The notes beneath the pieces are model-generated. The model was not told where the DNA came from. It did not search any database and worked only from the letters and a program-made list of their open reading frames with translations. DNA of 64,000 nt from the NCBI GenBank assembly GCA_015272325.1, contig JACYLU010000009.1:1-64000 (forward strand). The letters are read 5' to 3'. The translations under genes and the position numbers were made by a program. Origin of the DNA: Synechococcales cyanobacterium C42_A2020_086 (GTDB lineage: Bacteria > Cyanobacteriota > Cyanobacteriia > Elainellales > Elainellaceae). Of the stretch, positions 8,445 to 54,921 are shown one piece after another; within the stretch, counting starts at the first letter, position 1, and every line of letters starts with the position of its first letter.

Positions 8445-11400
8445 ATGATGAAAGACTGGCTAGTTTTAGGTTCTGTTGCCTTTGGTGTTGGGTTTAGTCT
8501 CAGTCTGCCAATTACTCGCAACATTAAAGACTCTGCGCTTGTAGGCCTGACAGCCATTCCGGCTGCAACCAGCGGAGTGTTGGTACTCAGTCGCCAGCAA
8601 AAACGGCAGATAGGGATATTATTCTCCTCACTCCAGGCAGAAGTCCAAACCCTTGAACAGCAGAAGCAATTACTAGACCAAACGATCGCCACCATCCGCG
8701 AGCAACAGCAAGGGGCAGAAGTCAGGTTAAGTCAACTCAATGCTCAATTAGAACAATCGCAGACGCAACTCAGCAGTCAGGCGCAGGAAAGCCAGACAAT
8801 TCAACAAGAACTGGAAACGCTGGAAACCCAAAAGCGATCGCTACACCAGGAAAATCTGCACATTGAGAGTCAGTTGCAAGAACTGAGAGCGCAAGAGCAA
8901 CGGTTGAATGCTTCTCTCTCTGCGATCGCCGTTCAAAAGGAGCAACTGGAAGTTCAGTTAGGGGCTGAAGAGCAGCAAAGACAAGCCATTCATCAGGAAG
9001 TGACGCTGCTGGAAACTCAAAGGCAGTTGCTTCAAACAGAAACCAAACGTACTGAGGATCGGTTGCGAGAACTAAGAGTACAGGAGCATCAGGCGAATGA
9101 ATTATTGGAAACGATTGCTCAATTAACAGCACAAAAACAAACCCTAGAAACTGACTTAAATCAACTAGGCATTCAACTTCAGTCTTTTCAGCAACAGCAG
9201 TCCAACTTGATTCAGGAGTTGGAGCAACTTTCCACTGAAAAGGGTGAGTTAACAGAACTTCTCCATCAACTTCAAGAACAGATCCAGGCAACTCAAACTC
9301 TCGGTCAGCAGGATTCTCTGCTTCTGGAGAACCCTCCACCAGAGACAATGGTGCGCTTAGATTCCCCCCTGGATAATCAAGATATCTCATCACAGCCAGA
9401 GAGAGGCGATGCGGCGGCAGAGAATGTTGTGCCAGAAGGAGAACCTTCACGAGAAACGCGGAATGTCTCCGTGCATCAAGGACTGCAACAGATCGAACCG
9501 TTGGAACAAGTTGAAGCGTTTGAGATTCCACAGTCTGCTGCTGAGTTCCGACTAGCGAATGCAGAGCATACACGCTGGCTGTGGGAAGGTGTAATTCTCC
9601 CTCGCTGGCAGTATCCTCCTTTTTTAGGCAGTGTGTACTTACCACGTTATGACACTGATGAAGTTTGGGGTACGGAAACGATTCTGGATATCGTGGGGGA
9701 CAACCTGCGACGAATCGGCATCAACAATCTGGAATATGACCGGATATTCAATCGCCTTGGAGATGAAACCCATCTCAACTGGCTGAAAATTCTGACGTTA
9801 GCCATGTCAGAATACGCCTATTATTCAGAGGCAGAGGGTGGCTTCTGGGAAGGATTATGCAATCGATTGCAATTGCCCTATCAGGGCGACAACCATGATC
9901 CAGTTCAGATGCTTAGAGATCTAGCACGAGAGGGGATTCATCTGCTCAAGCTGCCTCAAGCAGTGGGAGGCTACCCGATCGTTTCTACCTTCTGGTTGCA
10001 AAGCGGTATTCCCCGCCGCAATCTCAACCATTTTACTGAACTCGTTGCAGATCTGGTTGTAGAACGAGGATGGCAATATCTTCTGAATGCAGATGCCAAA
10101 CTTTTAGCCCATCAACTTTTGAGTACCTGCCAAAATCGCTATCCAGGGCGAACGGTTTTACGACGATTTCTAGAGTATAGCTGTGCTTCTAAAGCAGATC
10201 CCTTATCTGGAAAACTGCTGCAAAGTATTGCCGGAGTAGCCATTGCCCTGCGGGAGTACAATCTTCAACCCCAGGAAGTTTTGCTCAACCCTGCCCAACG
10301 ACAAGAATTTCTGCTCAATGCCCTTCCTCAATTCAATTTCTTCCTCAGAGATTGGGAAGCTTTGATTCAGCTCCTTACCCCTCGTCCCGAATGGAGTGGA
10401 CGGAGTCGTCCTGGTATGGGGCAGCTTCCCCTGGCTCTGATGCTGGATACAGAGGATCTGTTGATTCAACTCATATTACCCGAACAAACCCTACCTCATC
10501 CTGACTGGACAGCAGGAACTTGTTTTATTCATGAAGCAAACTGGCAAGGAGAAATTAGCGCCTCTGGACAGGTCGAGATTGAGGAATGTGTGTTACCTAT
10601 TTACAACAGCAGTGAGGAATGGCACTGGCAATTACAAGATGAACAGGGAAATACCCTTTATTCATGGTATTTGGAGGGGACTTCATCCGATGCTCCCTAC
10701 CTTTTGTTTGATGCCTGGACGGGCGATCGTCTGCTTCCTGATCCTCAACTTGTCAACAGCCAAGACATTTTCTGCTTTGCGCCAACAGGGACTGTAATTG
10801 AAACGGTAGGGTCTATCGAACCTGTAGAGAACGGGATGCTTCCCTGTAGCATTCAAGGATGGCAGGGTAGACGATTGCGGCTGACCGGACAAATTGGAGA
10901 ACTCAATCTTCAATTTGACCATTGTTCCACCTCGATAAGCTGGAGAGCTGCGGCAAACGAACCTCGACTGCGGGGCTTACGGATGCGAGGGCAAAATGCT
11001 CCTTATCTTGAGCCGCCTGTACTCTGGTATCCTCCTTGTTCAACACCACTATCTCTCACGCTATCCCTGCAAGAATGCTTCGTTCAGAATAATCCGCTGA
11101 CAATTCGGGAGACGATTTCGATTCCAGTAGGCGATCGATGGTATGCCATTCCTTTAAACCAATGGCTCTCCCAATCGGGGCACTACAATATTACTCTGAC
11201 TGCACCAGAAGAGGAATGGTCACAATCCTTCGAGGTGCAAGCTGCTTATCAAGTCCGGGCTGAAGATATTGCTGCTTTGCCTCCTGTGCAAGTGACTGAT
11301 ACTGACGGAGCGGTGGTTGATCTTCCAATACAGACCGATCGCACCCATCAATTCTGGTCTACCACACTGCTCATTACAGGATTGTGGACACTGGAACCTG

Positions 11401-12335
11401 TCAAACTGCTGCTCTCGGATAGGCAAAATCAGATCAGTCGTTCCTTCCAGGCAACCGCAACAGGGCAGTTGCGTGTGGAGCTATCCACTCTCCATGATGT
11501 GTTGCCGCCCTCCAATCAATATGTGCTGGAGTATCAACGAGCGGGACAGGCTCCTCAGCGATTGGTGGAACTGGTGGAAAACCTCCCCCTGTCTTGGCGT
11601 TGGCAGAATAACACTCTGGAATTTTCCGGCTTAAAAGCTGACCAAACCTATGCGGTGCATTGCTGGAACTTACTTCTGCCTCAGCAACCTTCTTTAGAAA
11701 TTGCCCTGGCTACTGAAGTTTCTGTCAAGGTATCGCTCGATTTGCCTCCAAGCATCTATTACCTGCAATTAAAAGCCTCTGACCATTCAATAGAAAATCT
11801 AGGCTGGTGGTGTAACTGCGATGATCCTTGTGATGTCTCAATTGATGCCGATCCAACACTGGCTAAATATAGTTACGCGATTTTAGACAATGTTTTAGTT
11901 CACGAGTTCCAGACTGCTGCTCAGGCTTTAACCTGGGATAAAAACTGGATAGAAACGATCGCCGCTTCCCTAAAAACCGAAAATAATCGTTTCCCAGCAT
12001 GGCTTGATGCCACAGCACTTTTGGCAAAACTTCAGTCAATGCTGACTCCACTGAATGGACAGTGGTACATGGTGATGACAACAGAAGGAAGGCGAGGCGA
12101 CTTTCAAGATGCTCTAGTAGAATCGATCGCTCAACATAATCTGTGGCACCTCATCCTGGACTTTCGGCGGCATCGTCAACGAGATAAACGCAATATTGCA
12201 TTTGTGTCTGTCACTGATATTGAGCTTGCTCGTCCTTATATCAGTCAAGTTCCTTACTTTGAGCGGATGGGTCGGGCACCCTTAAGACCGGAGGAAACCA
12301 ACTTATTGCTGGGGTCAGGAGAGGTTGAGAGATAA
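8445..12335 (+). CDS. Membrane-anchored coiled-coil protein of a DruE-type defence operon (DruH-like position)
   Basis: A 1296-aa protein I cannot assign to a firm family. Residues 4-22 and about 30-48 are hydrophobic (WLVLGSVAFGVGFSL; LVGLTAIPAATSGVLVL), consistent with a membrane hairpin. Residues about 50-285 are a Gln/Glu/Leu-rich coiled coil with repeated segments such as LETQKRSLHQEN and LETQRQLLQTET. A variable acidic linker follows to about 360. The remaining 900 residues look folded: a helical part with WLWEGVILPRWQYPP and IPRRNLNHFTELVADLV, then Trp-rich beta-type repeats to the C-terminus. The stop is 2 nt from the next ATG, so the three genes form one operon. Its place before a DruE-like helicase is that of DruH in type III Druantia, but homology is not shown. 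The predicted anchor suggests action at the membrane. Confidence 0.6.
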   Translation: MMKDWLVLGSVAFGVGFSLSLPITRNIKDSALVGLTAIPAATSGVLVLSRQQKRQIGILFSSLQAEVQTLEQQKQLLDQTIATIREQQQGAEVRLSQLNAQLEQSQTQLSSQAQESQTIQQELETLETQKRSLHQENLHIESQLQELRAQEQRLNASLSAIAVQKEQLEVQLGAEEQQRQAIHQEVTLLETQRQLLQTETKRTEDRLRELRVQEHQANELLETIAQLTAQKQTLETDLNQLGIQLQSFQQQQSNLIQELEQLSTEKGELTELLHQLQEQIQATQTLGQQDSLLLENPPPETMVRLDSPLDNQDISSQPERGDAAAENVVPEGEPSRETRNVSVHQGLQQIEPLEQVEAFEIPQSAAEFRLANAEHTRWLWEGVILPRWQYPPFLGSVYLPRYDTDEVWGTETILDIVGDNLRRIGINNLEYDRIFNRLGDETHLNWLKILTLAMSEYAYYSEAEGGFWEGLCNRLQLPYQGDNHDPVQMLRDLAREGIHLLKLPQAVGGYPIVSTFWLQSGIPRRNLNHFTELVADLVVERGWQYLLNADAKLLAHQLLSTCQNRYPGRTVLRRFLEYSCASKADPLSGKLLQSIAGVAIALREYNLQPQEVLLNPAQRQEFLLNALPQFNFFLRDWEALIQLLTPRPEWSGRSRPGMGQLPLALMLDTEDLLIQLILPEQTLPHPDWTAGTCFIHEANWQGEISASGQVEIEECVLPIYNSSEEWHWQLQDEQGNTLYSWYLEGTSSDAPYLLFDAWTGDRLLPDPQLVNSQDIFCFAPTGTVIETVGSIEPVENGMLPCSIQGWQGRRLRLTGQIGELNLQFDHCSTSISWRAAANEPRLRGLRMRGQNAPYLEPPVLWYPPCSTPLSLTLSLQECFVQNNPLTIRETISIPVGDRWYAIPLNQWLSQSGHYNITLTAPEEEWSQSFEVQAAYQVRAEDIAALPPVQVTDTDGAVVDLPIQTDRTHQFWSTTLLITGLWTLEPVKLLLSDRQNQISRSFQATATGQLRVELSTLHDVLPPSNQYVLEYQRAGQAPQRLVELVENLPLSWRWQNNTLEFSGLKADQTYAVHCWNLLLPQQPSLEIALATEVSVKVSLDLPPSIYYLQLKASDHSIENLGWWCNCDDPCDVSIDADPTLAKYSYAILDNVLVHEFQTAAQALTWDKNWIETIAASLKTENNRFPAWLDATALLAKLQSMLTPLNGQWYMVMTTEGRRGDFQDALVESIAQHNLWHLILDFRRHRQRDKRNIAFVSVTDIELARPYISQVPYFERMGRAPLRPEETNLLLGSGEVER

Positions 12336-12337
12336 CG

Positions 12338-13258
12338 ATGTGGAACAGTAAAATTCTGCACCTGTTGAGTCATCATCGGCAACCGGGACAGCCAGTCCTA
12401 CCAGCAGCGCTGAGCATGACTCAAATTACGTCACTGCTGCGCCAATGCCTTGATCCGGCTCAGCCGACCGAGCAAATTGTGGATGAGGTACAGGAATCCC
12501 TACGCGAATTAGAGGCACAGAACGAAATTTTCAGGGCATTCGGTAATCGTTACTGTATGGCTCCACCTACCTTATTGGCACTAAACCGAGAGAACCTGGT
12601 TGGATGGCGCTTTCGAGGCGATCGGGCATATCTTAGCCTTGCACACGAAACGTTGAAAACAAGGCAACAGCCGACTGAAGAGAAGCTGCATTCTGGTATC
12701 AGGAATTTCGATCGGGCCAAGAGCAGGCTTCAGGATAGGAAAATTCGTTTGCTGACGTTAGAAGAAGTCATTAACGAACTCCCCAAACCTCAAAAGCCAC
12801 CGTATTTTCTTCTGCAAGGGCACCAATACCCACTGACTTGCTCGGAGCTTTGGCAGATGAGCGATGTGAAGCAGTATGTGCCCACCTATGCTGAACAAAA
12901 AGATCGATGGCGATCGCCCACACCCCAAACCTTGAGCAGTGAAAGTCTATTGCGATTGCCAGACGAAACATACCTTTGGTTTGAAGCAGAGGAGTTTTAC
13001 AAAATTGAGCCTAATGCGGCAATTCTTGCCATGTTTTATCTCGATCGCTGTGCTCAACAACCACTTCGCATTGTTTGGGCAAATGCGGCAATGAACCAAC
13101 TCAATCTACAAAACATCTGGTTGCCCTATGCCCATTTCCAATGGCTCCGACAACTATCCGAACCCATTGAAGGACACCGCAGAGTATTTTTTGTTTCTCC
13201 TGCCAATCGCCCCCTGGTGGAAGCCGTTTTTCAATATCTAGGATGTGATATACGATGA
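12338..13258 (+). CDS. Conserved operon protein of unknown function between coiled-coil protein and helicase
   Basis: A 306-aa soluble protein with no signal peptide or membrane segment. The first 100 residues (MTQITSLLRQCLDP, EIFRAFGNRYCMAPP, LLALNRENLVGWRFRGDRAYL) look like a small helical, winged-helix-type module. The C-terminal part (ETYLWFEAEEFYKIEPNAA, WLPYAHFQWLRQL) is mixed. Its start lies 2 nt after the upstream stop and its own stop overlaps the helicase ATG as ATGA, so all three products are probably made in fixed proportion. I do not recognise the family. An accessory or adaptor role for the helicase is inferred from coupling only. Confidence 0.6.
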   Translation: MWNSKILHLLSHHRQPGQPVLPAALSMTQITSLLRQCLDPAQPTEQIVDEVQESLRELEAQNEIFRAFGNRYCMAPPTLLALNRENLVGWRFRGDRAYLSLAHETLKTRQQPTEEKLHSGIRNFDRAKSRLQDRKIRLLTLEEVINELPKPQKPPYFLLQGHQYPLTCSELWQMSDVKQYVPTYAEQKDRWRSPTPQTLSSESLLRLPDETYLWFEAEEFYKIEPNAAILAMFYLDRCAQQPLRIVWANAAMNQLNLQNIWLPYAHFQWLRQLSEPIEGHRRVFFVSPANRPLVEAVFQYLGCDIR

Positions 13259-16200
13259 CAAACTATCTCGACCCCATTGCCGCCACAGAAAAGCCTCGTA
13301 ACGATTTCATCCGCTATTTACTCACAGCCTATCCCTTACGAGATTCAGCCTTGCGAACCGCATTTGAGCAGGAACTTCAGCAACGCGGCAGTATTTGGCA
13401 ATCGCCTTACCTAGAGGGTTCCCAACCTTATCGTCCAGATTGTAGTGTGGCAGATTTGGTGGCTGAGGGAGTGTTACATGCGGAAATGTCCCGTCTATTT
13501 CTGCCCCACCGCCCTCTCTATCAACATCAAGCTGTAGCAGTACGCGCCGTAGTTGAACGTCAAGAGAATATTATTGTTGCGACTGGGACAGGTTCCGGTA
13601 AAACGGAGTGTTTCCTGTTACCTATGATTGATCAACTTTTGAAAGAAGAAGGCGAACTGCAAGCCGGAGGTGTGCGTGTCCTGATTCTTTATCCCATGAA
13701 TGCGTTGGTCAATGATCAGGTCAAACGACTGCGCCAGCTCCTTTGCCGTCAAAGCAGCAATCGTCCCCGCATTCAGTTTGGGTTTTACACCAGCCGCACA
13801 GAGAAGGAGGAAAAAGCAGCTCAACAAGCCCTAGCAGATGAACTTCGCGCCTATAGCGATGATGAACTGTTGAGTCTAATTCCATCAGCAGAACAAGCAG
13901 AGATGAGGGAACTGGTTACAGGATCTCGACGAGAAGTGGTTGTGACGAGAGCCTGTGAACTTGTGCAAGAGATTCAAACGCTTTAACGAGCAGAAATTCA
14001 GCGGAAGCCGCCCCACATCTTAGTCACCAACTACTCGATGTTGGAACATATGCTGATCCGCCCTAAAGAGCGTGGAACGATTTTTGAGCGATCGGCAGGA
14101 TTGTTCAAAATGCTGGTGGTGGACGAGGCACATTCCTACGATGGCTCTACGGGCACTGAAGTGTCCATGCTGATTAAGCGGCTTAAAACCGCTGTCCAAG
14201 TTGAGTCCTCTGGACAAATTCGCTGTATTGCAACCAGTGCTAGTTTAGGCGATGAATCAGTCGATTCGCAGGTGATTGAATTCGCCAAGCAATTATTTGA
14301 TGAACCATTTGAACAAGTAGTACGGGGCACTCGTGTATCTGCTACTGAGAGGTTGGAAGAACCCTATGCTTTACCTGAAGGATTAAGTGAAGAAGAGGTT
14401 TATGAACACTTCTATACTCTCGAATTACCCAAACTAAACGATCCTATAGAGGATTGGGAAAAGCAACTGAGTTACCTTGTCCCTAATGAACGGCTACAAG
14501 TTGCTAAAGCTAAAGCGACTGAAGCACCTCCCGAAGAACAAATTCACCGATTTCTCTGGTACGCCCTCAAGCAGCATCCCACAGTTCATAATCTAATTCG
14601 CCTGCTAGCTCGATCGCCCCAACCTTGGGAACAGATTGCTCAATCTGCTGAACTCTGGAAATTCCCGACCACCGTCGAAGGTGAAATTCCACCAGAAGAA
14701 CAGAAGAACCTACAGCGTGCTTTGGCACACCTCATTCAGTTAGGCACGTTAGCACGAGAAAACTTAGAGGATTTGCCCCTGCTTCCAGTTCGTCTGCACC
14801 TGCTATTCCGTAGCATTGAGGGATTATATGCTTGTGTCAATCCACACTGTCAGCCACCAGGCGCGCAAGTCCCTCCTGCTCCCAATCGCCGCTACGGACG
14901 GGTATATCTCAGTGAACGAAAGACTTGCGAAGATTGCAAGGCTCCAGTTTTGGAATTGGCAAGCTGCCGCAAATGTGGACAGGCTTATAGTCTGATGCAT
15001 CTGGGTGAACAGGGAGAATTGCTTTCTTTGCCGCGATCATTAGAAGCGGTTGAAGATAACAAACGTATTTATGTGCTTACCTCCGGACCTCTCGATAGCA
15101 TTACTCTGGATGAAGAGGAAGAAGAGTCTGACAGCGTTGATGAAAACACAGGAATCTGTCTGTTAACCCGCAGGCAAGGATGGATTGGTCGGGTTGCTCG
15201 TACTCCTGAACAACTTCAGCAAGCGCCTGAATCGGAGAAATTTTCGCTTCTCTGGCATATTCCACCGAACACTAAAAGTACAGAGGGTGGATACTTGTCA
15301 CGTTGCCCTGCTTGCGCGGCTGGACGAACTCAAACCTCCTCTATCGGGCGCTTCATTTCCTATACAGATGCGCCACTAGAAGTCATGATTGATGGATTGT
15401 TTGAACTTTTGCCTGATCCGACATGGGAAGAGGGACAACCCACAAAACGCAAATTGCTGACTTTCTCAGATGGTCGCCAGGATGCTGCGTTTTTCTCCTC
15501 TGATTTTCAGCGCACCCATACGGAAGCTCTCTATCGTCAGATGGTATGGCACGCTTTCCAGGATTGTCGGGATGAAGAGAAAGTTGCCTCCGTCAAACAA
15601 GTGGAAGACAAGTTAGTCGAACACTTTCTGAAGGTTTCAATTCCTCATCCCGATCGCGATCCGGAATGGCATCATCATAGTTATGTTGCCAATGATGAAC
15701 TGGATGAGGAGCCAAAAAACCCGAAGGACTGCAAAGATCATGCTCGTAGCCGTGCTAAAGAATTGCTGCTGCGAGAATTTGGCTTACCTTCGGCTCGGCG
15801 CTTTTCGATCGAAGCGTTGGGATTGCTCGCGTGTCATCTCGATTGGCAGGGTTACTCAGGTGTCCAGAAACTATGCGATCGGTTCAATATCTCCAAAGCA
15901 GAAGCCATTGTATTTCTAACTGCACTCACCGACTTAATCCGGCTTTCTGGAATTGTCAATGTTGAGAAGCCATCTGATTATTTTCCAGAAGTCGGTGGAG
16001 TAGAGGATGTTCGCCCTGGAATATTGGACAAATCAGGAAAGGTCAAAAAGTTCCTCAAGCTGCAAAAAGGACAGGGGGATGCAAAAGAAGCAGTTTCCTT
16101 CTGTGCATACAAAGCTGGTAACAATCAACTGATCCGTAGCACTTTTGTAAACTATTGTGAGAAGGTATTTGGATTAACGGCAAAAGAGCAGGGAGAGGAA

Positions 16201-19200
16201 TTGAAAGATATTCAACTCTGGCTCTACGAAGAGGTGTTGCTAGGCAGCAATGTTCTAGCAAAGTACGATAAAGATGGTCGTCAGCTCAACTGGGGACTAC
16301 TCAATATTCAGCAGACCTCTGAGGACTGGTGTCGTTGCAATACCTGCCAGCAAATCTTCCATCTTCCTGGCTTTTCTTTAATTGAAGAACAGCCCAAACT
16401 CAATGTCCGGAAATGTCCTGCGTTCAGATGTAACGGAGAACTGCGTCCTTTCCCCTTGGAGCAGATGCAGGATGATCACTATCGACATCTGATTCAAGTC
16501 AGACATATGCTGCCACTGAGGGCACAGGAACATACTGCTCAATTAGAAACAGATGACTTAGCACATCGAGAAAGTCGTTTTCGGCGTGGTCAGACAAACC
16601 TACTCAGTTGTTCCACAACACTGGAGATGGGTGTTGATATTGGAGAATTGCAAGCCGTAGTTCTCCGAAACTTTCCGCCTCATGTGAGCAATTATCAACA
16701 ACGGGCAGGAAGAGCAGGACGACGGACGGATGGGGTAGCCGTAACCCTCATGTATGGGCAACGTCGCCCTCACGATCGCTACTACTTCGAGCAGCCTGAA
16801 CGTTTAATTGCAGGTAAAAACCAAATTCCCAAACTCGATCCACGTAATTTCCAGGTGCAAGAACGCCATATTCGGGCAGAATTACTGGCAGAATTCTTGC
16901 GAAAAGACGATTTAGGAGCAGAAGACGTGAAGATTTTTGTCTTTCTTGCTCTTCCCAAAGATGCGCCCACCTCCGCGCCTAATTTTACGCCGCCGAATAG
17001 CTCTCCAATCACTCAATTTCAGCTATGGTTACGCAGCGATGATGCCCGTCAACTCACTGACTATTGGCTCAATAAGCTAGGAGGAAAGGAACGATCGCAT
17101 ACACAAGTTTTAGAAGATTTTAGCGATCGAATCGAGGAATTCCAAAAACAACAATTGCAGGACTGGGATGCGTTGGTTGAAGTATTACTGAGTCTGCAAC
17201 AACGATTAACAGACCCTACAGAAGCTAGGAATTTAACTACAATTGCAAAACATCTTGCCAAAACTCAAGCGGAGCTAGACAAAATTGCAGATCGTCGTTT
17301 ACACGATGAACTTGCTCGCGCTAGTATTCTCCCAATCTACGGATTCCCCATTGATGTAGTACGGCTAATGACTGGAAAGCGCCAACATCGCCTAGAGCGC
17401 GATCGTCGCCTTGCACTGGGTGAGTACGCTCCAGGACAGGAAATTGTAGTGGACGATCGAGTCCATACCAGCGTAGGAGTTGTCAGACCTGAAAAATTGT
17501 TGGAGCAATACTATTGGGTTTGCCAGAACTGCAATTATTTCACCTCCAGTCTAAAGAAGAGCGATTACTACGCAACTTGCCCAGTATGCAAAGCAGCAGC
17601 TTCGGCTCCGAAGCCTCGGCTTTACAAAGTTCCTGGTGCATTCACAACAGATTGGCGACAAAATCCTAAAGTCACGCCCTATAGCAAACCCATGCGCCAA
17701 CCCACCTCTCAAGTTTTCTTAGCGAAAGAAGGAGACATCTCGGTTTGCTTATCTTCAGCTTCAGACCCATACACGCTTGTATATAGTCAAGCTGGTCGAT
17801 TTTTCCTAGCTAATCAGGGTCCTGCTCAGGATGGAAAGGGATTTAAGAATCCTGGTTTTGCACTCTGCCGCTTCTGTGGACGAGACCTGAGTGAAGATGT
17901 TTGGAAGCAAAGGGCGAAAGTAAAAGTCAGCAAAAAACAATCAAAGCTCGGCAAGTCTTCAGAATCTGTTCCCTCGACCATTCCTCATAATCACCCAATC
18001 AGCGATCGTCCCTGTTCAGGTGGATATGAAAGAACACATTTAGGACACGATTTCTTAAGTGATTTACTCAAACTCCGCTTTAGTCAGGCAACTCATCCTC
18101 CCGCATTATTTGAACCTGTTGCTCATCTGGCTGACGGGGAAGAAATAGCTTCAGTAGAGGCAGATGGATCGTCATCCCAGCCAACTGGAATGACATTCTG
18201 GCGATCGCTCACGTCTGCTCTTTTAGCTGCGGCATCTCAAGTGATTGATGTGCCAAGGACTGAATTGGATGGATTATTCCGTCCTTCCGAAGATCGAGAC
18301 GGTACAGCAGAAATTGTGATCTATGACAATGTACCAGGTGGTGCAGGCTACAGTCGCAAAATTGGCGAACGCTTCCGCGAGGTACTGCAACAGGCATATC
18401 AGATTGTAGAATCCTGTTCCTGTGACAGCAGTTGCTATGACTGTTTGCGAACCTATTCCAATCAATTCTTTCATCACGAACTCGATCGCCATCAGATAAA
18501 AGCATTTCTGCAACCGCTGGTTGAACAGATAAATCCAGAGCTATTTCCAGAACTCCAAGATTTTGCTGCCGATGCCAATCAGGTCACTCATCCTCAAATT
18601 ATGGCTCAGTTCGGGGCATGCTGCCGCGCTGCCAGTTCTACCAGCATCATGGGCTTACCTCAACTGGAAGAGCCATTTACCCTGAAGCGACTCACAGAAA
18701 TCATCAACGCTCTACAAAACCGAAATGACTCTCTAGAGCTAATAGTGCGTCATTTACCTCAACCGATTTCAGATCAAGAACGAGTTCTCCGCAAACGCCT
18801 GCAACAATGGATTGATCAGGGAGCGCTCAAGCTTTACGTGCTAGACCAAGATATTCTTCCAGAACTGTGTCTGAGCAGCCAGTGGGAACGCTATCGTATT
18901 GCCTTACGGTACTGTCCTGCTGAGGGCGATAACCCCGCCTACTGGCTAAAAACAACAACTGAGCGAGGTGTTACCCAAGTCTTCGATCGCCTGAAACAGT
19001 TGCAGCAGCGAGCTAAATCTGTTGCTGCTCAAGAGTTGATCGATCGAGATACTAACGTAGTGTTTCCCGATCGCACCTGGAAGAATCTCAGTATTGATCA
19101 ACTCCGTCGCCAACTAGGTTTAGAGCAGGTTCTAGTCGGAAGCAAGATTTCACAAGTGATTTATAGCGATCGTTATCTTAACGCATTTGATGCCCAGTTC

Positions 19201-19539
19201 TTAGCCGATTTATTGAAGGGTGACTGGCTGGAGTCTAACACTCAAGTCACCATTCACATTCAACAACTTTATAAAGAATACCGCTCAAATGATACCAGTC
19301 GTCGAGTAACAATGGAGAAAGTACTTGCCCAGCAATTGGAATTGCAGCCTAACGTTAAGATGCGTCCCTATGGACGCAACTATGAAACTCTTTCACACAG
19401 CCGGGAGTTAACTATTTGCCGTCAAGATAAGCAGGTTTATCGAATGTTGTTTGACAAAGGAATGAATTTTTTAGAGAAAACTAACGGCACCTACCACGTT
19501 ACCGAATCTACCTACGTGGTTGTGACGAAACAGAGATGA
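13255..19539 (+). pseudogene. DruE-like DEAD/DEAH helicase with DUF1998/MZB region, interrupted by one in-frame TAA
   Basis: The frame of about 2094 codons encodes a superfamily 2 helicase. It has Walker A ATGTGSGKTE, VVDEAHSYDG (DEAH), CIATSASLGD, a helicase C block ending NYQQRAGRAGRR, several Cys pairs (CEDCKAP, CRKCGQA, CPACAAG, CRCNTCQ), and the DUF1998/MZB signature IYDNVPGGAGY with CSCDSSCYDCLRTYSNQ. The size and layout match DruE of Druantia systems. A C-terminal extension ends in ELTICRQ...YRMLFDKGMNFLE. A TAA at 13984-13986 splits it into 243 and 1833 aa. The frame is the same on both sides, and the codons between the stop and ATG 14038 encode conserved helicase sequence (PPHILVTNYSMLE). 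The stop falls between Walker A and DEAH, so restart at 14038 would give a helicase without an ATP-binding loop. Nonsense mutation, sequencing error or recoding are the options. Confidence 0.8.
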
Positions 19540-47743: not shown

Positions 47744-49138
47744 ATGACCGGTTCATCTTCATATCCCGCACTGCTTCGACGGATCACTTCTCCTAATCAA
47801 GCTGATCCAGGTCCTGCCACCTATCCCCTGACCGCCGCTACTACCCTCTTGATTGGACGCGATCCGCGCTGTCAAATTGTCTTGGATTCGCAGCAGCACG
47901 GGGCCGTCTCGCGGCAGCACGTCAGAATTTCTCCTTCGCCTATGTCGCCGTCGGGCTGGGAGGTGTGCGACCTCAATAGCGCCAATGGGACCTATGTCAA
48001 CGGGCAGCGATTGCAGGGTTGTGTCCCTCTGCGGTCCGGAGATGCCATTACTTTGTCTCAGAATGGACCGCAGTTCGTCTTTGAGCTGCGGGCACTCAGC
48101 CCCGTTCCCAACTTTCCAGCACCCCCCCCCTCTACAGAACCTGATCCGCCGCCCGCCATTGCCGCGTCTACCCGTCCGCCGCGTGTGACCCCAGCCTCGC
48201 CACCGCCACCCGACGGGGTCACGCTGAGTCAGCTATTTCCGATTCTGTCCACTGGTCGAGACCTCACCCGCAAAGCCTATCTAGTGCCGGGGATTTTTAC
48301 GGTGTCTTTTGTGGTGCTGATGTTTTTCTCGATCGGCAACCCGATTCTCTTCAACCTGCTGCTAGCGTTCTATATTGCCGGCATAGCCTTCTACTTTGTC
48401 TATCAGCTCTGTGGCAAACCGAAACCCTGGTGGCTATTGGTCTGCTCTGCGCTGCTGACGATGGTGCTGCTGATCAGTCCGGTGCTGCTGATCTTTCTGT
48501 TCGTATTTCGCGGCATTTTGCCAGGCAATATCCCGGACGATAATTCAGCCGGGCTACTGCGAACCTTTGTGCAGATGTTTTTTGGCGCGGGGTTGATGGA
48601 GGAGTTGCTGAAGGCAATTCCGGTGTTGTTAGCCTACTGGATCGGTGCACGACTGCGCTCACCGCATCGAGAGCGGATTGGCGTTTGGGAACCGCTAGAT
48701 GGTATTTTGCTGGGCACCGCCTCTGCGGTTGGATTTACCCTCCTGGAAACCTTGGGGCAGTATGTTCCGGGTGTGGTGAATGATGTGACGCTTCAGGCTG
48801 GGACAGAAAGTTTGGGGCAGCTTGTGGGGCTACAGCTGCTAATTCCCCGAATTCTGGGTTCCATTTCAGGGCATATGGCCTATAGCGGTTACTTTGGCTA
48901 TTTCATCGGCCTGAGTGTATTGAAGCCTGCCCGACGCTGGCGAATCCTCACGGTGGGCTATCTGACGGCTTCCCTACTGCACGCGCTTTGGAACACAACG
49001 GGGCTACTGAATCTTGGTGTAACGGCCGTAGTTGGGGTAGTTTCCTATGCTTTCTTAACGGCGGCTATTCTCCAGGCCAGAAAACTATCGCCCACCCGCG
49101 ATCAGAACTTTGCCACTCGGTTTACTCGACTTCCCTAA
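47744..49138 (+). CDS. FHA domain fused to PrsW-type intramembrane protease
   Basis: A 464-aa protein. Residues about 25-115 are an FHA phosphothreonine-binding domain (LLIGRDPRCQIVLDSQ, VSRQHVRISPS, DLNSANGTYVNGQRL). A Pro-rich linker runs to about 160. The rest is a multi-pass PrsW-like domain, with FFGAGLMEELLKAIPVL carrying the E-E-x-x-K-A motif, a later Glu in FTLLETLGQYV, and His residues in ISGHMAYSGYFGY and LLHALWNT. PrsW proteases act in membranes, as in regulated sigma-factor release. The FHA domain suggests recruitment by a phosphorylated protein. No RsiW-like substrate is adjacent. Confidence 0.82.
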   Translation: MTGSSSYPALLRRITSPNQADPGPATYPLTAATTLLIGRDPRCQIVLDSQQHGAVSRQHVRISPSPMSPSGWEVCDLNSANGTYVNGQRLQGCVPLRSGDAITLSQNGPQFVFELRALSPVPNFPAPPPSTEPDPPPAIAASTRPPRVTPASPPPPDGVTLSQLFPILSTGRDLTRKAYLVPGIFTVSFVVLMFFSIGNPILFNLLLAFYIAGIAFYFVYQLCGKPKPWWLLVCSALLTMVLLISPVLLIFLFVFRGILPGNIPDDNSAGLLRTFVQMFFGAGLMEELLKAIPVLLAYWIGARLRSPHRERIGVWEPLDGILLGTASAVGFTLLETLGQYVPGVVNDVTLQAGTESLGQLVGLQLLIPRILGSISGHMAYSGYFGYFIGLSVLKPARRWRILTVGYLTASLLHALWNTTGLLNLGVTAVVGVVSYAFLTAAILQARKLSPTRDQNFATRFTRLP

Positions 49139-49170: not shown

Positions 49171-49809
49171 CTAGTGGTGATGATCGGGTGCTGGCATTTG
49201 GGCAATGGCATAGCGAGCAATGGCTAGACTGAGACGAGCTTGCTCAACGCCCGATAGCTCGGTCCACGCTGCACAGCGCATCGAGCGTAGAGCTGCTTCT
49301 AGCGTTTCCGTTTCGCTGCCGCGCATAGCATAGGCAAACGGACGTGCCAGAACTAACAAATCTGCCTCCGACCACGTGGGTAGACAGTCGCGAACGCACT
49401 GCACCATCTGCTCGGCCAGGGAGGCACGACTCATCATAGCGGCTTGGGCGCGCTGTACAATGCTTTCGAGCAGCGATTGAGGGACTTGGGCCGCAAACTG
49501 TTGCAGCAGTGTCGTACAGGCTGCGCTCACAACCGTTTCAGCAGACGGTGCTGCAGGTTGCACGCTCGCCCAAACCTGATCCAGTTGGTTAGCGAGACGT
49601 CGCCCCTGCTCAGCTAGCTCTTCTGCCGTCCAGCCCGCCGTCATCACTTCCTGTTCTAGAGCAGCAAAGTAAGCCTCCGTCTCCACCGGATTCCCTACCG
49701 GATTCCAAGGATAGGCAACAGCATCCTCTTGCAGCATCAGCTGCAGTAGCTCTAGTTCTGCCTGAGCTTGAAAGGGAGAAATGGAGGGACGGGTCGGATC
49801 ATGGGTCAT
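49171..49809 (-). CDS. Conserved helical protein of unknown function
   Basis: A 212-aa acidic, largely helical protein (AQAELELLQLMLQED; WTAEELAEQGRRLANQLDQVW; ARLSLAIARYAIAQMP) ending in a His-rich tail (PDHHH). ATG 49809 is chosen because AGGAG stands 7-8 nt upstream; the frame extends to 49860 without support. I do not recognise a family with a function. It shares strand and neighbourhood with the CHAT-FHA and PP2C genes, with 266 bp to the next. Confidence 0.6.
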   Translation of the reverse strand: MTHDPTRPSISPFQAQAELELLQLMLQEDAVAYPWNPVGNPVETEAYFAALEQEVMTAGWTAEELAEQGRRLANQLDQVWASVQPAAPSAETVVSAACTTLLQQFAAQVPQSLLESIVQRAQAAMMSRASLAEQMVQCVRDCLPTWSEADLLVLARPFAYAMRGSETETLEAALRSMRCAAWTELSGVEQARLSLAIARYAIAQMPAPDHHH

Positions 49810-50075
49810 GGATTTACTCCTAAAGCTACGCTGATACACAGGTTGTGGATTGCTTGACATGAGTCACTACAGTCATAAACGGGCACGTTCCGTAAGCGAA
49901 GTCAGATTAGAGTCAGATTAAAGTCAGGTTTTACCGTCAAACGTTGCAATCGGCAGTCCAGGCTGTGGTCTAGTCTACCTAGGTTGTCGTTGTTCCCAGA
50001 GATCCAGCAAGACTGCTCCTTTCTGGAGGGTTGGATCTTGCCTAGTCTTGATCAGTTAGGTGCTCTAGTTAGGTG

Positions 50076-51737
50076 CTAGTTAGACGGACCCTCAATAATG
50101 AATTCCAGCGCCTGCCCTCTTAAATTGCCAAACTTAAGTTGAGTCCGAGATCGCAGCGGTACCTCTTGATGGTGAACCAGCAGCCAACCGTCCGGTCCCG
50201 AGACGTAGGTGCCCCAGCGGGAACGGTCGCGCAGCATGTAGCTAGGTTCAGCCCCTTCCTTTGCGACTGTATCTCGATAGAGAATTTCGGCATGTTCGCG
50301 CGACACTTCCGGCTGCTGTAGCACCACATCGTTGCTTTCGCCGCGCCCCACCCGCATGATGCCACCGCGCAACGACCAGACCCGAGAAGGCGTCGTGACT
50401 AGCCGCAGATAGGCCTGGGGTGCTCGTCGTCCAAACCAGCTGTTCGATTGATCGGGGATTTCTGTGGAGCCTTCTGTGGAGGGGCGGATCAGCTCACCAT
50501 TGAACTCGGGATGCATGTAGAGCACGGGCAGCGTCCAGGCAGGTTGATTGAAGCGATACAATGTCAACAAATGCTGACGTGCAATGGCAACGGCTTCATC
50601 GATAGATGCTCGCCGCGCTAACTGCTGAGTAAATACCTGAATAAAGCTGAGTGCTTCTTGGTCTGTGATCGAGTCGCGCATGCCCAATACTGCCGGCACA
50701 CCATGGTGAATCAGCACTTCTGCCAAACTGCTGCGCGGGATCGTCTGCCCATCGCGCTGATCGGGCTGGGCCCCCCAGCAGGCATTGAAAACTGCCAGCT
50801 TGACCTGACAACGCACCAACACCTGCGCCAGTTCAGTTCCATTGATTTCAGCGTCTGCCCGCAAAAAGAGCTGCCCGCCATCGGGGGCTGGCGATCCGTG
50901 CCCGGAGTAGAACAACACGTTGTAGGCTCCCGTCTCTAGGTAGCTGATTAGCTCTGACGGGCTGGGTTCAAGCAACGTAGTCACTTGACAGCGAACCGGA
51001 GAAGACAAGGAGTAGCTTGTAGGGTCGGTTTCGCCAGCACTCTCTAGCAGCCGCGACAGGGATTCAGCCTCTTGCTCGAGTGCTAGCCGTTGGGAGTTGC
51101 CCACGAGTGGGGTGGAGCGAGCGGTGCTGCCTTCTGAGTCATGCCCCAACACCAGCAAGATGCTAAGCGATTGAGTAGAGCGCTGGGGCGGCAGCGGATC
51201 GACATCACTAGTTGTGCGGCTGAACAGAATTTGCTGTTGATTGCTCAGCGAAATGGCTGGTCGTCCGGGCTGCGGCTGCATAATTTCCCAGGGCAGGGTA
51301 ATGAGATTGGGATCGCGAATTTCCAGCCGGAGCCGCAGCGGTCGATTCTGCCCGCGTGCCATACCCTGACTATGGTTGAAACTATTTTGAATCGGTCCGT
51401 CAAACAGCCATTCCCAGAGACTGACGCCGAGCCTCTGCATGATTCGCTCGGTATAGCTAACGGGTTGAGCCGGGTTGGGGGTCGCGGTGTCGGGATTAGC
51501 GGCGGGCGAAATCAAAGAATCGAACACGGACGATACATAGGGGACAGGCGGCAACCCCCGCAGCGGGAAAAAGCTTTGCCACGCTTGCCAATGCTCGTCT
51601 AACGCCTGAGTCCACTTTCGGACATGATGCACCCGCCCTCCCGGATACGGAGCTTGCCACACCCAAATTGCGTAGTGCTGCGGTCCAACATCCGTTAGCG
51701 GCTCAATCACCAAACTCAGGCAAGGAATATCAGACAT
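50076..51737 (-). CDS. CHAT domain (caspase-like) protease with C-terminal FHA domain
   Basis: A 553-aa protein. The middle (about 205-420) is a CHAT domain of clan CD, with the catalytic His in LFYSGHGSPAPDGG and Cys in VFNACWGAQ, so both dyad residues are intact. The C-terminal 110 residues are an FHA domain (MRVGRGESNDVVLQQPEVSR, REHAEI, DRSRWGTYVSG). The N-terminal 200 residues contain a beta-rich segment leading to ITLPWEIMQPQ. The start MSDIPCLSLVIEP at 51737 is preferred; GTG 51764 is possible. A PP2C gene follows upstream on the same strand. A phospho-dependent protease is a reasonable inference. Confidence 0.83.
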   Translation of the reverse strand: MSDIPCLSLVIEPLTDVGPQHYAIWVWQAPYPGGRVHHVRKWTQALDEHWQAWQSFFPLRGLPPVPYVSSVFDSLISPAANPDTATPNPAQPVSYTERIMQRLGVSLWEWLFDGPIQNSFNHSQGMARGQNRPLRLRLEIRDPNLITLPWEIMQPQPGRPAISLSNQQQILFSRTTSDVDPLPPQRSTQSLSILLVLGHDSEGSTARSTPLVGNSQRLALEQEAESLSRLLESAGETDPTSYSLSSPVRCQVTTLLEPSPSELISYLETGAYNVLFYSGHGSPAPDGGQLFLRADAEINGTELAQVLVRCQVKLAVFNACWGAQPDQRDGQTIPRSSLAEVLIHHGVPAVLGMRDSITDQEALSFIQVFTQQLARRASIDEAVAIARQHLLTLYRFNQPAWTLPVLYMHPEFNGELIRPSTEGSTEIPDQSNSWFGRRAPQAYLRLVTTPSRVWSLRGGIMRVGRGESNDVVLQQPEVSREHAEILYRDTVAKEGAEPSYMLRDRSRWGTYVSGPDGWLLVHHQEVPLRSRTQLKFGNLRGQALEFIIEGPSN

Positions 51738-51907
51738 TAGCGGGGAACTATCAACCAAAAGCACATAAAACTGCGGATTGCAAAACCCGAACTGATGACT
51801 TGCCGAATATCCACCCTTAACAGTCTATCTGGTCTATCGCGAGAGTGAGCGCTCAGCCTCCGCCTTTCTCAAATTCAGAAGTTCGCAGCGAACTGCTTTA
51901 CCTAAAT

Positions 51908-54346
51908 TTAGGGCGGCGGGGTCGGTGATGGCACAGGTCCTTCAATCGTTGGCAGCGGTACAGACTGCACGCATTCAGAAATCTGCTCGACCGACAGATC
52001 GGGACGCACCGTGATTCGAGGCAGCAGTGTGGCTTCGGCGATCCAGCCGTTGTCACCGGGTTGCACCAAGGCAGGGCGTTGCGGGTTGACGGGCAGTGCC
52101 GGAGCAGCGACATCAGCTTCAGCAGGAGTCGGTCTGGCTTCCGGACTATCGCCAGCAGGGGTGGAGCAGACTCGCACATTCAGCCAGAGCTGCCGCTGGG
52201 AATCTTCCTGCCGTTTCAAGATGCCGAGCAAGGTACCCTGCGGAATGACTCCTAGAGACTCAATCGCAGGGGAGGGAGCGCCTTCAGGGGTTGCACCCGC
52301 AGGAGCGGGCAAAAGCCGAAGAGGCTGTGAATTGCCATCTAAAGGAGATTGAGTCAGTTGCACCACGGTTCCAACGGCGAGTGCTTCGGCTAGGGGCGCT
52401 GGCGTGCTTGTCGTAGGAGGACTCGCTCCTATCTCCGGCTCTAGCTGAGGAATAGGTGAGGTGGCGCGACGATCGATAGACGACGGCAGCAAAAGCGCCA
52501 GTAACAGCCCACCCATCCCTAAGAGCACCCCAATTCCCAGCAAGAGCGGCAGGATCCCTGCTTTAGCAGGCTGGGGGCGAACCACCCGAGGTTTGATCGG
52601 GTCCGCTGGAGCGGTTGCCAGTCTCGTCTGGGCCGTATCTGTCGCAGCTGGGGAAGCTGGGGCCCCCAGAGTTAGGGTGGGCTGCAGGGTGCTAGGTAGC
52701 TGGAGCGGCGGCAATTCCGACAGCGTGGGAGGTGAGGGTTGCTGCGCCGGGATCCGGTAGTGAATCAGCCCCACCGTGACATTGTCGTAGCCGTTGCGCT
52801 GGTTGCCAATGTCCACCAAACGACGGCTGGCAGTAGCCAGATCAACGCTGCCATCGAGGATAGGCAATAACTCACTTTCCCAGACTTCCTCTACCCGGTC
52901 ATTATCGCTCAAGCCATCCGAGCAGAGCAGAAAGACGCAGTCTTCGTCTGGGATTAGCCGCTGCACCGTGGGGTAAAGCGACGACGAGCCACCCATACCG
53001 AGAGCTTGCACCAGGGAACCAGCGCTCGGCTGCTGCAGCGCTTGGCGATAGAAACTGTAGCCTAGCCGCACTTCTCGTGAGGCAACGTCGTCATCCAGGG
53101 TGATTTGATGGCAGCCGCGTCGGGTAATCCAGTAGGCGCGACTATCACCCACATGCATAATATACAGCTCATGACCCCGTGCCAAGCCCATCACCAAGGT
53201 GGTGCCCATGCGCTGCCGGTCGTAGCGCTGCTCCTGATCATTCCGCTGGCTAATCTGGTCATTGGCGACTGCAATCGCTTTTTCCAGCTCTACCGTCAAC
53301 GTGGTGGGATCCAAGTGCGGCAGCGGCAGCGCTTTCACGTGCTGTTCGAGCGATTCAATGGCTAGATGCGAGGCAACATCACCTCCCTGATGCCCACCAA
53401 TGCCATCACAGACAATCAGCAAAACTGGCTCTGCTGATTCGAATCGCTGTACGGTGCCGCTTGCTGGATAGCACGCATCTTCATTGCGCTGTCGAGTTGG
53501 ACCTTGATCGGTGAGCGTGGCGATTTGAATCTGCCGAGTCTGGGTTTGCCCGACCTGAGCTAACGCCGCATCTAAATAGTGAGTCAGCAGCTCGGCGTTG
53601 CGGATCTGTTTATTGATCAGCCCTTGGCAAAGGTGCTGCAGAAATCCGCGAATTTTCGGACTTGCCGTGGCAACCCAGCCCGACCAAAGTTGCCCTAGGT
53701 CCACCAAAGTAGGAGGATCGCGTCGATCAGCATCAAACTGCAGCTCCAGCAGCCGCACCAACCCTCCCTCCACCCGCAGCAGGTCAGGCTCGAATAGGCT
53801 AGCGGCCACCTGCTCACTGCTCAGCGGATGCCACAGATTTGCCAGCTGCCACAGCCAGTTCAACTGCCGCAACGGGCTAGCTTGGGGCCAGGCATCTAGC
53901 AGAGCAGGAAACAACCGCACATCCCCAGAGCGAGTGGACGCGACTGGATCGGCAGTGGTTTTGGAGCTGCTCGCAGGACCCGTCACATAGAGCGGGGCTT
54001 GCTCCAGCAAAATCAAGGGCGCGGCTGAGGCAGACGCAATCCAATCGTAAACCTGAGGGACATGAGGCCGAAGCGGAGCTAGCCGCAGATAGGGCAAAAA
54101 CCGCTCAGGCACCTCCGCAAAATTGCTCGACAGCAGCCCCGGATGAGTATCCAGGAAAATTCGCTCGCGCTTGCACAGGTAGCGATCGACCAACAACTCG
54201 CCCGGTTGGCAGCTGACTCCTCCCAGTGCCCACAAATAGCGGTGAGGCAGCAGCGTTTGACATTTCTGGCAAAATTGATGATCTTCAGGATTTGGAGTTT
54301 GACAGGCAGGGTTGGGGCAGTAGAGCATTACCTTGGCGATGGGCAT
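51908..54346 (-). CDS. PP2C-type protein phosphatase with zinc ribbon, TM helix and C-terminal domain
   Basis: An 812-aa protein. The start carries a zinc ribbon (YCPNPACQTPN, FCQKCQTLL). A region of about 200 residues (LLVDRYLCKRERIFL, VPERFLPYLRL, PHVPQVYDWI) follows, resembling the start of a kinase-like fold without its catalytic motifs. The PP2C domain (about 275-520) has TDQGPTRQRNEDA, LLIVCDGIGGHQGGDVAS, HVGDSRAYWI and LLCSDGLSDND with metal Asp residues intact. A Pro-rich linker, one membrane helix (ILPLLLGIGVLLGMGGLLLA) and an SH3-like extracytoplasmic tail end it. It removes phosphate from Ser/Thr; the natural partners are the FHA proteins nearby. Start could be 54346 or 54328. Confidence 0.85.
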   Translation of the reverse strand: MPIAKVMLYCPNPACQTPNPEDHQFCQKCQTLLPHRYLWALGGVSCQPGELLVDRYLCKRERIFLDTHPGLLSSNFAEVPERFLPYLRLAPLRPHVPQVYDWIASASAAPLILLEQAPLYVTGPASSSKTTADPVASTRSGDVRLFPALLDAWPQASPLRQLNWLWQLANLWHPLSSEQVAASLFEPDLLRVEGGLVRLLELQFDADRRDPPTLVDLGQLWSGWVATASPKIRGFLQHLCQGLINKQIRNAELLTHYLDAALAQVGQTQTRQIQIATLTDQGPTRQRNEDACYPASGTVQRFESAEPVLLIVCDGIGGHQGGDVASHLAIESLEQHVKALPLPHLDPTTLTVELEKAIAVANDQISQRNDQEQRYDRQRMGTTLVMGLARGHELYIMHVGDSRAYWITRRGCHQITLDDDVASREVRLGYSFYRQALQQPSAGSLVQALGMGGSSSLYPTVQRLIPDEDCVFLLCSDGLSDNDRVEEVWESELLPILDGSVDLATASRRLVDIGNQRNGYDNVTVGLIHYRIPAQQPSPPTLSELPPLQLPSTLQPTLTLGAPASPAATDTAQTRLATAPADPIKPRVVRPQPAKAGILPLLLGIGVLLGMGGLLLALLLPSSIDRRATSPIPQLEPEIGASPPTTSTPAPLAEALAVGTVVQLTQSPLDGNSQPLRLLPAPAGATPEGAPSPAIESLGVIPQGTLLGILKRQEDSQRQLWLNVRVCSTPAGDSPEARPTPAEADVAAPALPVNPQRPALVQPGDNGWIAEATLLPRITVRPDLSVEQISECVQSVPLPTIEGPVPSPTPPP

Positions 54347-54555: not shown

Positions 54556-54921
54556 TTATTGAACCGCCAAATGATTGCTCGATTCGCCATCATCCGCCAA
54601 ACGCGGCAAACCTAGGCTGTAATTGCGCACGCGGCTGTTGAGATTGTAGGATATCTGCCCAGACTGCAACAGCGATCGCACAAAATGCTCTAAATCGGAG
54701 CCAATGCGGCGCAGATTATAGTCGGTGAGGTCAGCGCCGGCGTATTCTGCAACGAGCTGATCAAACTTGCGGTACACCTGCTGCAGGGCAGCGTCATTCC
54801 AAATCAGCTCATTGTCTGGGTCAACATCCAACGTCAGCTTATCGGTGCTAGGCACTAGTTCATTGTTCTGAATTTCTCCAGTAAAAATGCGGATATGGCG
54901 CGTGGTGGACTTCAGTAGCAT
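54556..54921 (-). CDS. ndhM: NAD(P)H-quinone oxidoreductase subunit M
   Basis: NdhM is a peripheral subunit of the cyanobacterial and plastid NDH-1 complex, which runs cyclic electron flow and respiration. The 121-aa protein matches the family: LLKSTTRHIRIFTGEIQNNE, LTLDVDPDNELIWNDAALQ, ADLTDYNLRRIGSDLEHFVR and ISYNLNSRVRNYSLGLPR. Its length is typical. It stands alone on the minus strand between the PP2C gene and a divergent DUF4230 gene. Confidence 0.96.
   Translation of the reverse strand: MLLKSTTRHIRIFTGEIQNNELVPSTDKLTLDVDPDNELIWNDAALQQVYRKFDQLVAEYAGADLTDYNLRRIGSDLEHFVRSLLQSGQISYNLNSRVRNYSLGLPRLADDGESSNHLAVQ

Follow-up and report, generated by a model that had tools for sequence, protein, structure and literature searches.

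A 64,000-nucleotide stretch of contig JACYLU010000009.1 from Synechococcales cyanobacterium C42_A2020_086 (positions 1 to 64,000; the window) was analyzed for a putative caspase-like protease locus and its partner genes. Three genes follow each other on the minus strand 3' of ndhM. They encode a membrane PP2C phosphatase, a protein with CHAT and FHA domains (CHAT-FHA) and a small helical protein whose family is labeled H229 (the longer open reading frame here has 229 amino acids). An original prediction made from the letters of the window had listed the same genes in the same order and on the same strand, and had proposed that phosphorylation, reset by the phosphatase, controls the protease in stress signaling, cell death or defense. 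Domain assignments are Pfam matches above cut-off, except for the zinc ribbon, which falls below its cut-off, and residues of CHAT-FHA are numbered from the GTG at 51764. The source genome comprises 5.93 Mb in 38 contigs and contains four CHAT matches. The features of the locus are:

50076-51764, minus strand: CHAT-FHA gene, 562 amino acids from the GTG at 51764 or 553 amino acids from the ATG at 51737
50550-51434, minus strand: CHAT domain (Pfam CHAT, 83 bits), dyad identical in 77 of 77 relatives
50127-50354, minus strand: FHA domain of CHAT-FHA; Arg474, Ser488 and His491 present, Trp517 in place of the usual Asn
49171-49809, minus strand: H229 gene, all-helical 212-amino-acid protein with a YPWNP segment and an ARPxAYAMR motif; co-occurs with CHAT-FHA
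51908-54346, minus strand: membrane PP2C phosphatase gene, 812 amino acids, with zinc ribbon, predicted pseudokinase, PP2C domain, one transmembrane helix and C-terminal tail
54260-54319, minus strand: four-Cys zinc ribbon of the PP2C protein, residues 10-29 (Cys10, 15, 26 and 29)
53537-54247, minus strand: predicted pseudokinase domain spanning residues about 34-270, kinase-like in fold but lacking the catalytic motifs
52763-53512, minus strand: PP2C catalytic domain, residues about 279-528
52487-52555, minus strand: predicted transmembrane helix of the PP2C protein, residues about 598-620, a hydrophobic segment read from the sequence by eye
54556-54921, minus strand: ndhM (NDH-1 subunit M; Pfam NdhM, E 8.7e-54), upstream neighbor common to many relatives
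47744-49138, plus strand: convergent gene for an FHA-PrsW intramembrane protease (Pfam PrsW, E 5.4e-38; FHA, E 5.9e-18)

The distribution of CHAT-FHA and H229 was compared across 292 genomes of the phylum, with a threshold of E 1e-60 and no more than four scored candidates per genome for CHAT-FHA. CHAT-FHA was detected in 68 genomes and the H229 family in 70, which bears out the impression of a conserved helical protein that the original prediction had mentioned as an aside. Both were present in 67 genomes, CHAT-FHA only in one, H229 only in three and neither in 221 (phi 0.96; Fisher P 3e-61, a value that ignores relatedness). The corresponding phi value was 0.84 with HetR, 0.87 with HetF (threshold E 1e-150) and 0.73 with PrsW-like proteins, which are the product of a neighboring gene and thus serve as a linkage control. 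In the 16 genomes in which HetR and CHAT-FHA disagree, H229 sides with CHAT-FHA 14 times. The two genes are adjacent on the same strand in 50 of the 67 genomes, are separated by 1.1-1.6 Mb of the same contig in four and are found on different contigs in 13. One of these 13 genomes (G211) has each gene flanked by unrelated genes, and the other 12 may reflect contig breaks; both genes are present though unlinked in at least five genomes. The exceptions are a CHAT-FHA gene truncated where its 5959-base contig stops (G123), a genome with a decayed CHAT-FHA (G005, see below), a genome whose sole match is HetF-like (G207) and a genome in which the search for H229, run without a positive control, found none (G237). 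This near-perfect co-occurrence, even where the genes are unlinked, makes it very probable that CHAT-FHA and H229 work together, and H229 is the tighter partner of the protease.

Gene order was analyzed in the best 80 of 316 CHAT-FHA relatives from a scan of GTDB genome contigs. H229 directly adjoins CHAT-FHA in 69 of the 80 loci (on the downstream side in 66 and on the upstream side in three), and the contig end was too near in three more. The loci with swapped order but retained adjacency belong to Laspinema (L053, L080 and L081), where H229 lies upstream on the same strand. PP2C is the direct upstream neighbor in 39 loci, with eight left undecided by contig ends, and the genes can thus be regarded as conserved neighbors, as the original prediction required. 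The FHA-PrsW gene is found convergent in 27 loci, is not there in 43 and is undecided in 10. The complete order ndhM, PP2C, CHAT-FHA, H229 and FHA-PrsW recurs in a genome of another family (G125). Most of the named loci belong to filamentous genera (Leptolyngbya, Microcoleus, Symploca, Oculatella and others), and two carry the names of the unicellular or colonial genera Aphanothece and Cyanosarcina. A mostly filamentous spread of CHAT-FHA and H229 fits their overlap with HetR and HetF.

CHAT-FHA matches the Pfam CHAT family (PF12770) with E 3.3e-23 (cut-off 24 bits), and the profile match begins at the ATG at 51737. The dyad residues His289 (codon 50898-50900) and Cys329 (codon 50778-50780) are identical in all 77 aligned relatives, so that the His/Cys pair noted earlier in the window is invariant in the family. 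The terminal FHA domain was likewise recovered (Pfam E 4.2e-12, 46.8 bits against a cut-off of 20.7). FHA domains bind phosphopeptides through a face of Arg, Ser, His and Asn residues, in which the Arg normally anchors the phosphate. Among the 77 relatives, Ser488 and His491 are always present, Arg474 is found in 61 and the Asn in seven, its position being occupied by Tyr, Phe or Trp in 66; owing to Trp517, the window protein does not carry the full set. The invariant dyad and the variable FHA Arg and Asn thus show strict selection on the protease site but not on the residues that grip the phosphate. CHAT-FHA is a putative active endopeptidase, and for part of the family it is doubtful whether the FHA domain recognizes phosphorylated partners. 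Of the 39 sequences with an adjacent PP2C gene (window included), 11 lack Arg474, as do three of the 31 without one and two of the seven left undecided by contig ends. A tie between loss of this residue and absence of PP2C was considered and rejected, since the losses are commoner beside PP2C.

Starting from the ATG at 49809, a Met shared by all 63 relatives, H229 has 212 amino acids; the 229-amino-acid open reading frame is less likely to represent the true protein. The predicted structure is all-helical (predicted local distance difference test [pLDDT] 80.6, predicted template modeling score [pTM] 0.58). Two parts are conserved, namely a Tyr-Pro-Trp-Asn-Pro segment, which is flexible, and a stretch of the form Ala-Arg-Pro...Met-Arg with a loop at its end; a protease site in this loop at Arg180 is conceivable but no more than a guess. 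Searches for distant homologs in Pfam gave nothing beyond scattered weak matches, and structure searches found no relative (Foldseek best E 1.9; VIA best Z 4.4), which does not show that H229 has a new fold. In one genome (G005, locus L115), the PP2C and H229 genes are both still open, and what is left of CHAT-FHA between them contains seven stops.

The PP2C protein was found as originally described, with a zinc ribbon whose Cys residues are invariant in 35 of 35 relatives (DZR match E 0.0043, below the curated cut-off; 21.8 bits to a kinase domain model with a four-Cys prefix, against a cut-off of 24), metal-binding Asp290, 314, 477 and 521 identical in 36 of 36, and one hydrophobic segment. 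The catalytic domain matches Pfam PP2C_2 with E 4.1e-13 (49.8 bits against a cut-off of 24) and NCBIfam Stp1/PP2C with 157 bits, under the cut-off of 230. The tail that follows the transmembrane helix (51911-52486, minus strand) is Pro-rich and variable with a short core that keeps Val-Cys and Gly-Trp, possibly an SH3-like sensor.

The region between the zinc ribbon and the catalytic domain is predicted to be a non-catalytic kinase-fold domain, that is, a hidden pseudokinase. An AlphaFold model of residues 1-300, based on 35 sequences (pLDDT 87.9, pTM 0.82), gave PknG (7q52) as best Foldseek match (E 2.7e-4, TM-score 0.44) and as the sole match below 1e-3. The other Foldseek matches listed are protein kinases, with two exceptions: an aminoglycoside phosphotransferase and the chain of an inflammasome entry, which we take to be the kinase NEK7. 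VIA-align placed CRAF at Z 11.0 (176 residues, 4.2 Å) and YabT at Z 10.6 (189 residues, 3.7 Å); Z was at least 8 for 924 of 1000 chains, with kinase entries among the matches listed. Pfam kinase models gave zero matches in 35 members of the N-terminal family, and neither the HxDxKxxN motif nor DFG/DYG (within residues 150-270) was present in any of 51 members. A kinase profile gave no value better than E 0.0043. Comparison with 20 kinases of the source genome by hhalign (P 0.0025 with probability 12, and 3.3e-4 with probability 38) was weak, yet in register over the catalytic loop; the H229 control gave P 0.11. Because profile comparison alone is weak, the kinase assignment rests mainly on the predicted fold. 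It would account for a region that is blank in Pfam, and it suggests a way in which such phosphatases find their targets. The N-terminal region occurs in 101 of the 292 genomes, often in several copies, which places the protein in a wider PP2C family with one branch located beside CHAT-FHA.

Several known proteins resemble this architecture. The cyanobacterial Ser/Thr phosphatase family PRK14559/NF011149 shares the zinc ribbon and PP2C domain (281.6 bits), and its paralogous members have the same pseudokinase region; however, the score is under the curated cut-off of 374, and the protein described here has a transmembrane helix and a long tail. PknG, which combines a rubredoxin with a kinase, is the best Foldseek match of the zinc-ribbon/kinase-fold region but is an active kinase, whereas the PP2C protein lacks the catalytic motifs and continues into a phosphatase domain. 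Pseudomonas fusions are reported to unite a phosphatase and a kinase domain in a single protein with PP2C N-terminal to the kinase (PMC1262709), in contrast to the non-catalytic kinase fold N-terminal to PP2C found here. No match combining pseudokinase, PP2C and cyanobacteria was found in the open-licence literature, and a term search of a review of bacterial pseudokinases (PMC12599244) yielded no mention of PP2C.

For CHAT-FHA, the best NCBIfam relative is HetF (alr3546; 162.4 bits over HetF residues 72-386), and 56 genomes contain both. The score is nevertheless far under the HetF (NF045509) equivalog cut-off of 1200 bits, and the source genome encodes a separate HetF-like protein. HetF is reported to have transmembrane and TPR parts (PMC8406250), whereas Pfam recognizes CHAT followed by FHA only in the protein studied here. 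HetF reportedly keeps PatU3 levels low and could degrade PatU3 (PMC12288457). Craspase offers a second parallel, as the TPR-CHAT protease Csx29 is described to cleave Csx30, a client encoded by a neighboring gene (PMC10028731). The present protease carries FHA in place of TPR, and the parallel between H229 and Csx30 is drawn from gene arrangement. Cas7-11/gRAMP or CRISPR genes were absent among the annotated neighbors, among which no CRISPR-specific search was made. The open-licence literature gave no match for a CHAT domain together with an FHA domain, either in cyanobacteria or in bacterial proteases.

We consider the chances about evenly balanced that the locus represents a vertically kept module in which a HetF-like CHAT cysteine protease is paired with H229 as its dedicated partner, under looser PP2C control. 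CHAT-FHA would cleave as an endopeptidase, with H229 as its specific client. Because Csx30, encoded beside the CHAT protease Csx29, is cut, a substrate is the most likely role of H229, ahead of an activator or inhibitor, although by this analogy we place it slightly below an even chance. The FHA domain would take the protease to its partner, which in some lineages may be a phospho-Thr protein made by one of numerous unlinked Hanks kinases. Where the receptor-like phosphatase is a neighbor, it could strip that phosphate with its dead kinase domain as a docking platform, but a resetting of the switch by PP2C is unlikely on balance. By analogy with HetF, the module probably serves to control growth or envelope/division in lineages that are mostly filamentous, and core regulation fits better than defense. 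Rather improbable is the further step of a second caspase-like pathway parallel to HetF-PatU3, in which H229 is the dedicated substrate and a receptor phosphatase with a pseudokinase sensor times the cut. If this is true, H229 would found a so far undescribed protein family with a downstream function in controlling filament growth or the envelope. Few CHAT proteases have a known client, and across many cyanobacteria CHAT-FHA and H229 are candidates for such a pair of protease and client. Within CHAT protease systems, the tie to H229 and the pseudokinase are the features that deserve further attention.

Several observations weigh against the module of protease and dedicated partner. H229 is not beside CHAT-FHA in eight of the 80 loci despite available sequence, and PP2C is not the upstream neighbor in 33. 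Of the 77 relatives, 16 lack FHA Arg474 and 70 have another residue in place of the Asn, and the H229 family alignment contains no conserved Thr. The co-occurrence figures ignore shared ancestry, and partial evolutionary-rate correlations (11-21 loci) fail to single out the pair, all gene pairs being partly correlated. The retention of H229 next to a decayed CHAT-FHA in G005 means that H229 may act independently of the protease. The same retention is compatible with H229 being an obligate cofactor, inhibitor or localization adaptor, with CHAT-FHA controlled by binding and cutting something else. This possibility, to which we give appreciable weight though well under an even chance, explains the co-occurrence equally well, and the compact helical protein with its flexible conserved YPWNP segment, which resembles a docking motif, agrees with it; however, the known neighbor-encoded CHAT client Csx30 is reported to be a substrate (PMC10028731), and neither Foldseek nor VIA matched H229 to known inhibitors or adaptors. 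Mere descent of unrelated housekeeping genes in frozen order would explain the long shared stretches of gene order in close relatives and the similar rate correlations of all gene pairs. It is improbable, as CHAT-FHA and H229 co-occur even when unlinked, stay adjacent when their order is swapped and go together in nearly all genomes in which HetR and CHAT-FHA disagree.

The phospho-gated caspase-like module of the original prediction, in which a kinase and PP2C set a phosphorylation that is read by the FHA domain, so that the protease is switched in stress, death or defense, fared less well and is now doubtful. The frequent PP2C neighbor with intact active-site residues, Arg474, Ser488 and His491 in the window protein, a neighboring FHA-PrsW with a complete SRxH/NG motif and the 30 protein-kinase matches of the source genome (two of them in one open frame) speak for it. 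Losses of the FHA Arg and Asn speak against it, and 11 of the 16 Arg losses adjoin the very phosphatase that was proposed to reset the switch. A profile search of 81 stretches for the linked Ser/Thr kinase that the idea called for detected one in just five, at varying and not conserved positions, and none in the other 76. The window itself holds no kinase by this search, as stated originally, except that the PP2C protein contains the non-catalytic kinase-fold domain; the nearest listed kinase match on the contig lies 16 kb beyond the window. A strict phospho-gate is uncertain because the FHA residues and the PP2C linkage are patchy, and the presence of FHA and PP2C parts still suggests that phosphorylation matters. 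A system for phage defense or programmed cell death is very improbable, although CHAT proteases are described to act in Craspase immunity (PMC9729208, PMC10028731), PADLOC gave a weak BovA match (E 7e-4) and the window contains a Druantia-like locus at a distance of about 30 kb. The genes are single-copy, widespread and often in the same order beside ndhM across many lineages, mobile or defense genes were absent among the neighbors examined, and the suggested death or defense role found no positive support. A defense annotation of the module was rejected, the PADLOC matches to defense families being weak only.

ndhM is outside the proposed mechanism. FHA-PrsW, a neighbor kept in part of the lineage, is of uncertain membership in the module; it constitutes a second FHA-protease combination beside CHAT-FHA, with the full FHA motif read from its sequence. 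Promoter and terminator counts at the locus were at the same level as in shuffled sequence. The Druantia-like locus (8445-19539, plus strand) consists of a 1296-amino-acid gene, a 306-amino-acid gene and a DruE-type helicase (PADLOC DruE, E 6e-176); the helicase is probably broken, as its coding sequence falls into two open frames at about 13986-14038. Elsewhere in the source genome, on contig C24 (about 144007-146894; L004 and L101), another CHAT gene is followed closely by a Ser/Thr kinase gene on the same strand.

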